From NCBI RefSeq assembly GCF_022662175.1, contig NZ_JAKMCR010000008.1, positions 1 to 64,000 on the forward strand: a DNA stretch of 64,000 nt. Reading direction: 5' to 3'. This document shows, piece after piece, positions 8,290 through 18,791 of the stretch; the stretch's first letter is position 1, and each line of letters opens with the position of its first letter. This stretch comes from Aestuariivivens marinum (lineage in GTDB: Bacteria > Bacteroidota > Bacteroidia > Flavobacteriales > Flavobacteriaceae). The notes under the pieces are model-generated. The model was not told the origin of the DNA. It did not search any database and saw nothing but the letters and a program-made list of their open reading frames with translations. The translations under genes and the position numbers were made by a program.

Positions 8290-10702
<2,413 letters not shown>

Positions 10703-10750
10703 AAAATACAAAAGCCATATCATGGTAGAATTTACTACTTTGACATGGCT
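10703..10750 (-). terminator. Terminator of the candidate structured RNA
   Basis: On the minus strand the arms AGCCAT..TCA and TGA..ATGGCT, with an inner GTAG/CTAC stem, form a long hairpin followed by TTTTGTATTTTTA. It fits an intrinsic terminator for transcription coming from the rplS side. Confidence 0.7.
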
Positions 10751-11242
10751 TTCTTTGAAATAACTTTCATTGACCTGTTTGGTATTACTACCAAAATCGA
10801 TTCAAATTTTCATCAAATCTTTTCAATTCAAGTGCTGTTATTTCAATGAAGCATTTGTGTAATTTTCAAAATGTATTGACCTATTACTCGAAATGCTCCC
10901 GGTTAATTGTTTTTCTTGATGCTTGTTTAACTATACATTCGCTTTCACGTTTGAATAGCCCCCAAGCATTGTCCTTAAAACAGTACTACTGTTTTTTTGG
11001 ACTTTCAACTACACGAGTTGCCATTTGCTTTCGCACTTGGGACTTTTTGTAGTATCATGGCGCTCTGCTAACACACGCATACACATGGCGCATCCAACCT
11101 CAAAAAACAATTAAATTTAAAGAACGTTACTTTAAATAAGAATCTCAGCAAATTCATTTTTTAAATGAAACCAAACGAGTTTGTCATTGATTCTTATGCT
11201 AAGATAAATTAAGAATTTAAATTCGCAAATTTTTTATCTTGC
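10703..11242 (-). ncRNA. Candidate large structured RNA, unknown family
   Basis: No believable protein is encoded here, but the stretch is filled with perfect stems. Window coordinates of paired arms: 11201-11207/11234-11240; 11136-11144/11189-11197 (9 bp) enclosing 11153-11159/11163-11169; 11115-11122/11130-11137 (8 bp); 11008-11013/11048-11053 enclosing a hairpin at 11021-11040; 10977-10983/10989-10995 inside 10971-10974/10999-11002; 10919-10925/10963-10969; 10850-10856/10891-10897; 10755-10764/10837-10846 (10 bp) enclosing 10778-10784/10789-10795. Read on the minus strand three hairpins close on GNRA loops (GAAA, GAAA, GTAA) and some pairs become G-U wobbles, so the minus strand is the transcript. 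An intrinsic terminator ends it. The 5' end is uncertain. No tmRNA, RNase P, 6S or group II domain V signature was found. Confidence 0.6.
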
Positions 11243-11287
11243 TAAATATCAACTGCTTATCAACCAAGGTTATTAACAATGGTTAAT

Positions 11288-11321
11288 AAAAAAAGAGCCT
11301 TGATTTTTCAAGACTCTTTTA
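11288..11321 (-). terminator. rplS terminator
   Basis: Minus-strand hairpin AAAAGAGTCTTGA / TCAAGGCTCTTTT with a loop of A, followed by a run of seven T, 25 bases after the rplS stop codon. A further perfect hairpin (11270-11277/11282-11289) lies directly beyond it. Confidence 0.9.
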
Positions 11322-11345
11322 TAATGTGCTGTAGCTAGTAAAATA

Positions 11346-11696
11346 TTAGTGTCTACGCTCTTTAATTCTTGCTTTTTTACCAGTAAGTCCTCTAAAGTAG
11401 AAAATACGAGCTCTACGGACTTTACCACGTTTGTTAACTTCAATTTTTTGTAAAGCAGGCAAATTAATTGGAAAAATACGTTCTACTCCAATTGAACCAG
11501 ACATTTTCCTAATGGTAAAAGTTTCTGATGCACCAGAACCTCTTCTTTGGATAACAGTTCCTCTAAAAAACTGTGTACGAGTTTTGTTTCCCTCTTTAAT
11601 TTCGTAATAAACGGTAATTGTGTCACCAGCACCGAACTCTGGTAGGTCTTTTTTTGTTACAAATTCGTCTTGAACAAATTTTACTAAAGATTCCAT
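11346..11696 (-). CDS. rplS: 50S ribosomal protein L19
   Basis: A 116-residue ribosomal protein, located at the 30S-50S interface. The core FGAGDTITVYYEIKEGNKTRTQFFRG and the C-terminal IEVNKRGKVRRARIFYFRGLTGKKARIKERR blocks are typical. A longer reading frame starts at 11771, but the promoter at 11769-11798 would place the transcript start near 11763, and family members begin with the ESLVKFVQ-like segment, so the ATG at 11696 is used. The gene stands alone, not with rpsP-rimM-trmD as in many other bacteria. The leader may be regulatory (see 11697-11763). Confidence 0.97.
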   Translation of the reverse strand: MESLVKFVQDEFVTKKDLPEFGAGDTITVYYEIKEGNKTRTQFFRGTVIQRRGSGASETFTIRKMSGSIGVERIFPINLPALQKIEVNKRGKVRRARIFYFRGLTGKKARIKERRH

Positions 11697-11763
11697 ATCT
11701 TTATTTTTAAATGTTTGATTCGAAACAACATTCACGATTTTCGCCAGAGGTTGATTCGAAATT
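11697..11763 (-). promoter_or_regulatory. rplS leader, possible L19-responsive structure
   Basis: The predicted 65-base leader can form two hairpins: AATGTT/AACATT (11710-11715 and 11727-11732) close to the start codon, and ATTTCG/CGAAAAT further upstream. An 11-base direct repeat, TTGATTCGAAA on the plus strand, occurs at 11715-11725 and 11751-11761, one copy in each stem-loop. Ribosomal protein genes often carry leaders bound by their product; I recall that an L19-type leader has been predicted for Flavobacteria but could not check it. Confidence 0.45.
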
Positions 11764-11768
11764 GGGTG

Positions 11769-11798
11769 CAAAAATAGTTATTAATTGCCAATATGCAA
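11769..11798 (-). promoter_or_regulatory. rplS promoter
   Basis: Minus strand: TTG at 11798-11796, a 19-base spacer and TATTTTTG at 11776-11769, a full match to the Bacteroidota -33/-7 form. It predicts a transcript start about 65 bases before the rplS start codon. Confidence 0.8.
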
Positions 11799-11889
11799 TA
11801 CTTTGTGGTTGTTTTTTTGTTGAAAAAATAAATTACGATTGCCTTAGTTTTTGTAAATTTAAAAACACATCAATTAAATACGTAATATT

Positions 11890-12264
11890 ATGAATAATAA
11901 TATGGTAGGTTGGTTTGAGATACCTGTTAATAATATGGACCGTGCCAAACAATTTTATGAAACTGTTTTTAATGTTGAAATTAATATCCATGATTTTGGA
12001 GGGCTATTAATGGGATGGTTTCCAGACAGGGGTGAGGCCCATGGTGCCCAAGGGACTTTAATTAAGCAAGATTCTTATATACCAAGTAAGAAAGGGGTAC
12101 TTATCTATTTTTTAAGTGATAATGTGCAAAACGAATTGGATAGAGTGGTTACCGCCGGTGGTGAGATATACCAACCTAAAACACAAATCTCACCAGAGCA
12201 CGGGTATATGGGTGCTTTTATTGATAGTGAAGGAAACAGGATTGCATTGCATTCAAAAAAATGA
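11890..12264 (+). CDS. VOC (glyoxalase/bleomycin resistance) family protein
   Basis: A 124-residue protein of the vicinal oxygen chelate fold: two beta-alpha-beta-beta-beta modules, the first starting WFEIPVNNMDRAKQFYETVF (about 6-25) and the second ending in YMGAFIDSEGNRIALHSKK. The pattern resembles the small putative enzymes related to Streptomyces CFP-29/PhnB. The EGN-IALHS end is family-typical. The metal and substrate are unknown. It is followed 29 bp later by the TrmH-type gene and may share its transcript. Confidence 0.85.
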   Translation: MNNNMVGWFEIPVNNMDRAKQFYETVFNVEINIHDFGGLLMGWFPDRGEAHGAQGTLIKQDSYIPSKKGVLIYFLSDNVQNELDRVVTAGGEIYQPKTQISPEHGYMGAFIDSEGNRIALHSKK

Positions 12265-18550: not shown

Positions 18551-18580
18551 TTGTGAAAATTTTAAAAGATTGTATCTTTG
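18551..18580 (+). promoter_or_regulatory. SRP RNA promoter
   Basis: TTG at 18551-18553, a 19-base spacer and TATCTTTG at 18573-18580, a full match to the Bacteroidota consensus. It ends six bases before the mature RNA. Confidence 0.85.
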
Positions 18581-18585
18581 CACCC

Positions 18586-18680
18586 GGCAAGTCCTACACA
18601 ACCAGCTCCTGTTGAATCCTCCAGGGCGGGAACGCAGCAAAGGTATACGGTTGTAGCGGTGTGATGTAGGTAGCTTGCCT
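18586..18680 (+). ncRNA. ffs: Signal recognition particle RNA, small bacterial type
   Basis: The ends GGCAAG and CTTGCC pair, and the arms fold back along TCCTACACAACC and GGTTGT...GTGTGATGTAGG. The apical part has the conserved SRP domain IV motif, with GGGCGGGAACGCAGCAA holding the GGAA-type tetraloop and the symmetric loop that binds Ffh. It is about 95 bases, the small type that lacks the Alu domain. A T run follows at once and ends transcription. It works with Ffh and FtsY in co-translational membrane targeting. Confidence 0.95.
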
Positions 18681-18791
18681 TTTTTTATGCACTAAATTTA
18701 GATTTGGTTTTAAAAATTTTTACTTTCACTTTGTGAACTTTAACGTCCAGTATGGTTTGTGTATTTTTTTAATTGGAATTTAACTTATAAA

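Follow-up and report, generated by a model that had tools for sequence, protein, structure and literature searches.

What occupies the interval between rplS and icd in Aestuariivivens marinum? A first-pass annotation, made from the letters alone, had proposed a structured RNA of about 400-530 nt read from the minus strand. The window referred to below is the whole stretch of 64,000 nucleotides that was analysed, and all coordinates are counted from its first letter. Within it, the locus and its surroundings are laid out as follows.

11726-11753: L19-Flavobacteria ribosomal protein leader (RF03130), 29 nt, upstream of rplS, from the Rfam scan.
11346-11696, minus strand: rplS (ribosomal protein L19), the upstream neighbour of the RNA (Pfam PF01245, 1.1e-42).
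11286-11320, minus strand: conserved intrinsic terminator of rplS, between rplS and the RNA gene (window sequence; consensus AAAGCCtTga..tcaaGGCTTTTTTT in 157 relatives).
11246-11289, minus strand: promoter-proximal block, an inverted repeat TTATTAAC-N4-GTTAATAA with two further GTTnATA(A/T) units, conserved in 157 relatives.
11226-11253, minus strand: probable Bacteroidota-type promoter (TTG ... AAAATTTG), from conservation in 157 relatives.
10703-11219, minus strand: structured non-coding RNA of about 515 nt, from folding and covariation, its 5' end placed by the position of the promoter.
8290-10500, minus strand: icd, monomeric isocitrate dehydrogenase, the downstream neighbour (Pfam PF03971, E 0).
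18578-18684: small SRP RNA (RF04183), 104.8 bits, from the Rfam gathering scan of the window.

As far as sequence comparison can establish it, the interval contains a minus-strand gene, about 515 nt long, for a conserved, highly structured RNA; it is present as a single copy in its own genome and situated between rplS and icd. That this is a real conserved non-coding RNA gene is close to certain. The first-pass proposal is thus upheld by the existence of homologues, by compensating changes and by an excess of G-U over A-C appositions.

Folding energy provides a starting point. The minus strand from 10700 to 11242 reaches -143.2 kcal/mol (z -5.5), a value matched by none of 100 dinucleotide shuffles, and the segment 10705-11220 gives a z of -5.7 with again 0/100 shuffles as good. 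The plus strand is close behind (z -5.6, 0/100 shuffles), so folding energy alone cannot choose the strand, whereas covariation can. For this purpose, 216 full-length copies, remaining after 26 loci with fragmentary profile matches and L157 (a planctomycete chance match) had been dropped, were reduced by redundancy clustering, which removed 54, to 162 non-redundant copies with a mean identity of 65%. All columns were compared against all others by a G-test with APC, and the scores were set against 20 null alignments in which substitutions were redistributed along the tree. Eleven pairs reach E<=0.05 and lie above every null score, the lowest of them at 71.1 and the highest null score at 69.7. 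All eleven are mostly standard base pairs (79-99%). Ten are inside the RNAalifold consensus structure derived from the same alignment; the eleventh belongs to a 5' closing helix. Among the 50 highest-ranked covarying pairs, 46 fall inside the predicted structure; lower in the ranking the agreement declines (61/80 and 70/140).

A second comparison employed 55 diverse copies (alignment A3, with L100, L224, L087, L269 and L191 omitted from 60 selected copies). Here 93.6% of cells are paired, compared with 83.0% after shuffling of partners and 38-47% when they are slid; 65 of 83 pairs carry double changes, and none of 500 shuffles reaches any of the measures. The structure came from this very alignment, which gives it an advantage in the slid control; the all-against-all test is free of such bias. 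The strand follows from the wobble pairs. Across 156 pairs of the 162-copy alignment, 2481 cells are G-U and 412 are A-C, and in the 117 best-kept pairs the counts are 1965 and 189, an excess that identifies the minus strand as the RNA strand.

The same alignment bears on whether the interval could instead encode a small protein on either strand. In agreement with the first-pass annotation, which saw no plausible protein, no conserved ORF was found on the sense strand of the 162 copies: the longest sense ORFs have a median of 34 aa versus 33 in shuffles. On the antisense strand, ORFs exceed their shuffled counterparts in length (median 46 aa versus 33, one shuffle per sequence), extend up to 124 aa, and in up to 147/162 sequences some antisense ORF covers one same column. 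A purine-rich RNA strand could explain these long antisense frames. No start or stop is widely shared, the most common stop being found in 20/162 copies on the sense strand and in 36/162 on the antisense strand. Gap runs are out of phase (158 of 2616 are multiples of three), and double changes preserve base pairs. A protein gene is therefore very improbable on either strand.

The consensus structure from 162 relatives resolves the RNA into several domains, listed here from 5' to 3'.

11143-11190, minus strand: 5' closing helix 11186-11190/11143-11147, with one significant covarying pair.
11117-11135, minus strand: 5' hairpin with loop UAACGUU, from the consensus structure; AACGTT occurs in this region in 129/162 copies.
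10903-11113, minus strand: central multibranch domain; in its closing helix 11102-11113/10903-10915 (helix 1), 96.8% of cells are paired.
11021-11040, minus strand: central-domain hairpin with a GNRA loop (GAAA), two significant covarying pairs; GNRA in 64/132.
10919-10969, minus strand: helix 10962-10969/10919-10926 with the GNRA hairpin 10940-10949, containing the pair with the strongest covariation; GNRA in 133/159.
10848-10899, minus strand: 3' domain helix with a near-invariant GUCAAUACAUUUUGA hairpin, from covariation and the consensus structure.
10755-10846, minus strand: long-range helix 10837-10846/10755-10764 around the GNRA hairpin 10779-10794, from covariation and the consensus structure; GNRA in 101/126.
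10703-10753, minus strand: terminator whose stem, GAAAGCCAURUCA/UGAUAUGGCUUUU, is nearly invariant in sequence, from the consensus structure and an exact pattern scan.

Two small hairpins lie within the 5' closing helix, and the strands that close the central domain are AUUGUUUUUU/AAAAACAAUU. Most of the stems that had been picked out by eye in the window correspond to this consensus once positions are converted (subtracting a position of the L031 copy from 11243 gives the window position). The stems 10755-10764/10837-10846, 10919-10925/10963-10969 and 10850-10856/10891-10897 all fall on consensus helices, as does the intrinsic terminator at 10713-10750, and the GAAA loops at 10940-10949 and 11026-11035 and the GTAA loop at 10778-10795 are consensus hairpins. 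Two stems needed trimming. For the 5' hairpin drawn at 11115-11122/11130-11137, the inner six pairs form the consensus helix. In the window, all 9 bp of the stem 11136-11144/11189-11197 pair perfectly, but relatives support its inner part only, where it overlaps the closing helix 11186-11190/11143-11147 that holds the eleventh significant pair. The relatives keep the stems through compensating changes.

Two further GNRA loops (139/158 and 110/158) bring the total to five, each fraction being taken over the copies with a four-base loop; base composition alone would lead one to expect 3.8%. The hairpin with the 139/158 loop, second of the five, is shortened in the window copy. Together with conserved junction nucleotides, these loops hint at tertiary docking, although no such contact was located. 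A kissing loop through AACGTT was also considered: the motif is present in 129/162 copies, but its variants are mostly not palindromic, so the idea remains speculative.

How widely is the RNA distributed? Homologous copies, sought by blastn, were found in both genus and family. The RNA is present in 4/4 genomes of the genus, the organism's own included, and the three relatives share 80-84% identity with it across more than 600 bases. Across the family, blastn (E<=0.001, own genome included, the weakest matches not checked singly) finds it in 196/397 genomes and 138/237 genera. An exact pattern for the terminator hairpin, AAGCCATRTCA-N6-30-TGATATGGCTTT, occurs in 183/397 family genomes and 123/237 genera (own included), while a reversed-pattern control has 0 occurrences among the matches listed; in a class-wide draw, the exact pattern is found in 3/372 genomes, all three of them Flavobacteriaceae. 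A scan of named genomes with a 22-base signature returned 115 stretches, of which 114 have a profile match; the exception is L157, the planctomycete chance match. Algibacter, Lacinutrix, Winogradskyella, Tamlana, Seonamhaeicola, Bizionia, Olleya and Formosa are named carriers among the matches listed. Applied to whole genomes, the covariance model R1 identified the RNA in 11/395 genomes of an order draw and 5/395 of a phylum draw, again all Flavobacteriaceae. These R1 counts are probably too low, given that seven candidates per genome were scored under strict filters and that many rows come from a large genus lacking the RNA; for that reason, blastn and the pattern were used for distribution. 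On these samples, the RNA appears restricted to Flavobacteriaceae, in about half of the sampled genera. As a side observation, a contig labelled Chlorobiota (L086) carries the RNA beside rplS and icd of flavobacterial type (90% and 77% identity) and is probably a mislabelled bin.

Thirty genomes, chosen as blastn or R1 negatives, were examined in the region following rplS; one of them, G163, does match weakly by blastn (E 2.5e-4). A diverged copy lies in the gap between rplS and icd in ten of the thirty (L295-L298, L300, L301, L305, L307, L309 and L312), recognised by eye and by script from a 5' hairpin of the GTTCTTT type plus a terminator stem. In L296, L297 and L307 the terminator stem is re-paired with other letters, and in three genomes of the diverged-copy set (G004, G024 and G035) the exact terminator pattern also matches. 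When R1 was run on 24 of the 30 loci, it gave weak matches at the right place in L296 (23.6 bits, E 0.04), L301 (E 0.06) and L297 (E 0.6), and a weak match at another place in L294 (E 0.56). Three loci, L306, L311 and L317, have rplS-icd gaps of 235-286 nt with neither the 5' motif nor the terminator stem; they come from three genomes of one large genus, which, from its size in the sample, is probably Flavobacterium. The other 17 loci have no terminator stem of this RNA's type after rplS, and L310 has the 5' motif only. In L302, from genome G163, an unrelated opposite-strand ORF follows rplS, yet the genome holds the terminator pattern; a relocated copy of the RNA is possible there.

Since GNRA loops and nested stems are reminiscent of introns, the interval might be thought to be what is left of a mobile element, such as a group II intron, a retron or a MITE. 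In its own genome the RNA has one copy by blastn (next match E 0.04), its position beside rplS is fixed in relatives, the 22-base signature has 0 matches in the viral collection, no intron or retron family appears among the 14 matches of a permissive Rfam scan (to E 10), and the base pairs are still under selection. The check on an intron or transposon origin that the first-pass annotation had proposed accordingly gave no sign of mobility. As stated, a mobile remnant is refuted by the single copy, the fixed site, the lack of an intron family and the selected pairs, and such an origin is hardly credible.

The Rfam scans also address whether a known housekeeping RNA could be present here in diverged form, an idea that size and wide distribution, both like those of tmRNA or RNase P, might encourage. 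No Rfam 15 family overlaps the RNA at threshold, either in a permissive scan of 10000-12000 or in the gathering scan of the whole window, and the L19-Flavobacteria leader alone reaches threshold nearby. Twenty homologous loci gave the L19 leader in 20/20 and Flavo-1 in 5/20, both upstream of rplS, and nothing else, so the absence of an Rfam match extends from the window to these loci. Elsewhere in its own genome, RNase P (205 bits), tmRNA (150 bits), 6S-Flavo (103 bits) and SRP RNA (105 bits) are each accounted for. That the RNA is the genome's main copy of any of these four is thereby refuted, and a divergent housekeeping RNA is scarcely tenable. Separately, in the five relatives with Flavo-1 (RF01705; L205, L213, L236, L241 and L262), that RNA stands directly upstream of the L19 leader.

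Upstream of the RNA, rplS was found in 68/80 named loci. Of the 12 without it, ten start so near the RNA that the gene would not be included, L153 lacks rplS in the preceding 2 kb, and L157 is the chance match. All 30 of the fetched terminator-pattern loci have rplS upstream. For the downstream side, 209 loci have a complete 3' end. In 132 of them icd is on the same strand at a distance of up to 350 nt, and in 42 it is farther away; it was not found in six that have over 2.5 kb of sequence, and 29 are unclassed, some genomes being counted twice where the named and unnamed collections overlap. Between the RNA and a distant icd, an ORF of about 190 aa intervenes in 39/42 loci. This ORF is absent from the window, and the two examples tested, at L145:4883-5455(-) and L117:4016-4588(+), are pentapeptide-repeat proteins. 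A different protein follows rplS in L299, L319, L320, L321 and L323, where monomeric icd was not found; with its start of ...GDEMTRII, it is presumably isocitrate-dehydrogenase-like.

This arrangement invites the suggestion that the RNA is a very long 5' leader acting on icd, or on whichever gene comes next, as a riboswitch or attenuator, with the terminator serving as expression platform. The frequent proximity of icd on the same strand, and the fact that the terminator precedes it, are what such a leader would predict. The association with icd is not constant, though: the downstream gene varies from locus to locus while the RNA does not, the ORF of about 190 aa comes before icd in nearly all loci where icd is distant, and in 4/6 of the loci without icd the next ORF is on the opposite strand. 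The terminator stem, moreover, has no alternative partner in the consensus structure, the consensus fold alone being considered. A leader is thus improbable. Since icd follows so closely in 132/209 loci, an effect in cis may nonetheless occur in many species.

An independent, trans-acting RNA is favoured over a leader by the variable downstream neighbours and by the conserved rplS terminator, which separates the RNA from the gene before it. Between that terminator and the RNA lies the block conserved in 157 relatives, which reads, 5' to 3', TTATTAAC-N4-GTTAATAAC, GTTnATAA, GTTGATA and then AAATTTG. The motif at 11226-11253 is one which we take to be a Bacteroidota-type promoter, and the adjoining block at 11246-11289 is, from its sequence, a possible operator. 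Within the genome, the palindrome of the block is exact only at the RNA locus; elsewhere it has two-mismatch matches, about as many as the control. The palindrome scan of the organism's own genome gave no further exact palindrome, and no regulon emerged from it.

On this view, transcription would start at the RNA's own promoter and end at its own terminator, and the compactly folded product would act in trans; action in trans has a high probability. It may serve as a regulator or scaffold, either as the RNA component of a ribonucleoprotein or as an RNA particle. Its size, its GNRA loops and the conservation of its junctions point in this direction, and such a mode of action is an even bet. Taken as a whole, the best explanation is a folded RNA that is transcribed independently and acts in trans, possibly as an RNP or RNA particle; a probability of roughly 0.8 may be given to this explanation. 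A bolder version, in which a large ornate RNA specific to Flavobacteriaceae uses its UAACGUU loop and GNRA contacts to build an RNA-only or RNP particle with a novel cellular role, is tentative and rather unlikely.

A trans-acting RNA could also be an sRNA that base-pairs with mRNAs through conserved single-stranded segments. Conserved unpaired segments do exist, namely the UAACGUU loop, CAUGA and UGAAAG, and a promoter-like block plus a terminator would suit such a gene. Typical antisense sRNAs are smaller and less ornate than this RNA, which, at about 515 nt, has many nested covarying helices and GNRA loops. Base-pairing as its mode of action is unlikely.

Large ornate RNAs without an established function form a known broad category, of which OLE, GOLLD and ROOL are useful points of comparison. 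Their models, presumably contained in Rfam, gave no match in the scans of the window and the 20 loci. OLE RNA is described as an RNA of about 600 nt from Bacillota, large and ornate, its biochemical role not established (PMC12054373, PMC12265935). The new RNA is likewise a large, ornate, conserved non-coding RNA; unlike OLE, it has no Rfam match and belongs to another phylum. GOLLD and ROOL are described as large structured RNAs that form homo-oligomers (PMC12286853). The new RNA shares with them its size and structure, and its mostly palindromic loop could, as a speculation, permit self-contact. It differs from them in having no Rfam match, in being chromosomal and beside rplS, and in the absence of its signature from viral contigs.

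Closer to hand, 6S-Flavo RNA (RF01685; PMC2864571) is a Bacteroidota non-coding RNA gene whose model has 108 positions. Both are thus Bacteroidota non-coding RNA genes, with 6S-Flavo the shorter and separately present in the same genome. The L19-Flavobacteria leader (RF03130) shares the rplS locus; that leader of 29 nt lies upstream of rplS, whereas the new RNA lies downstream. The icd-II motif is described as a three-stem-junction leader, mostly from Polynucleobacter, that overlaps the icd ribosome-binding site (PMC8632094). It and the new RNA are both structured RNAs near icd; its three-stem junction and its overlap with that ribosome-binding site set it apart.

Four signature strings returned 0 papers from the CC-licensed PMC literature. 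Within the available text of that literature, including PMC9723704, PMC11109978, PMC8632094 and PMC2864571, no description of the RNA was found; a prior description elsewhere, for example among the new F. psychrophilum RNAs in the supplementary tables of PMC9723704, is possible. Judged from sequence, the RNA is best placed in a class of its own that is new, homology to the known large ornate RNAs not having been detected.

Structured RNAs of such size are rare in bacteria, and examples without a known function, such as OLE, GOLLD and ROOL, have proved informative. About half of the sampled genera of Flavobacteriaceae carry this RNA by either measure of distribution, yet nothing in Rfam 15 represents it. 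With a defined locus, a promoter candidate, a secondary structure and a pattern of presence and absence across the family, its function is directly testable.
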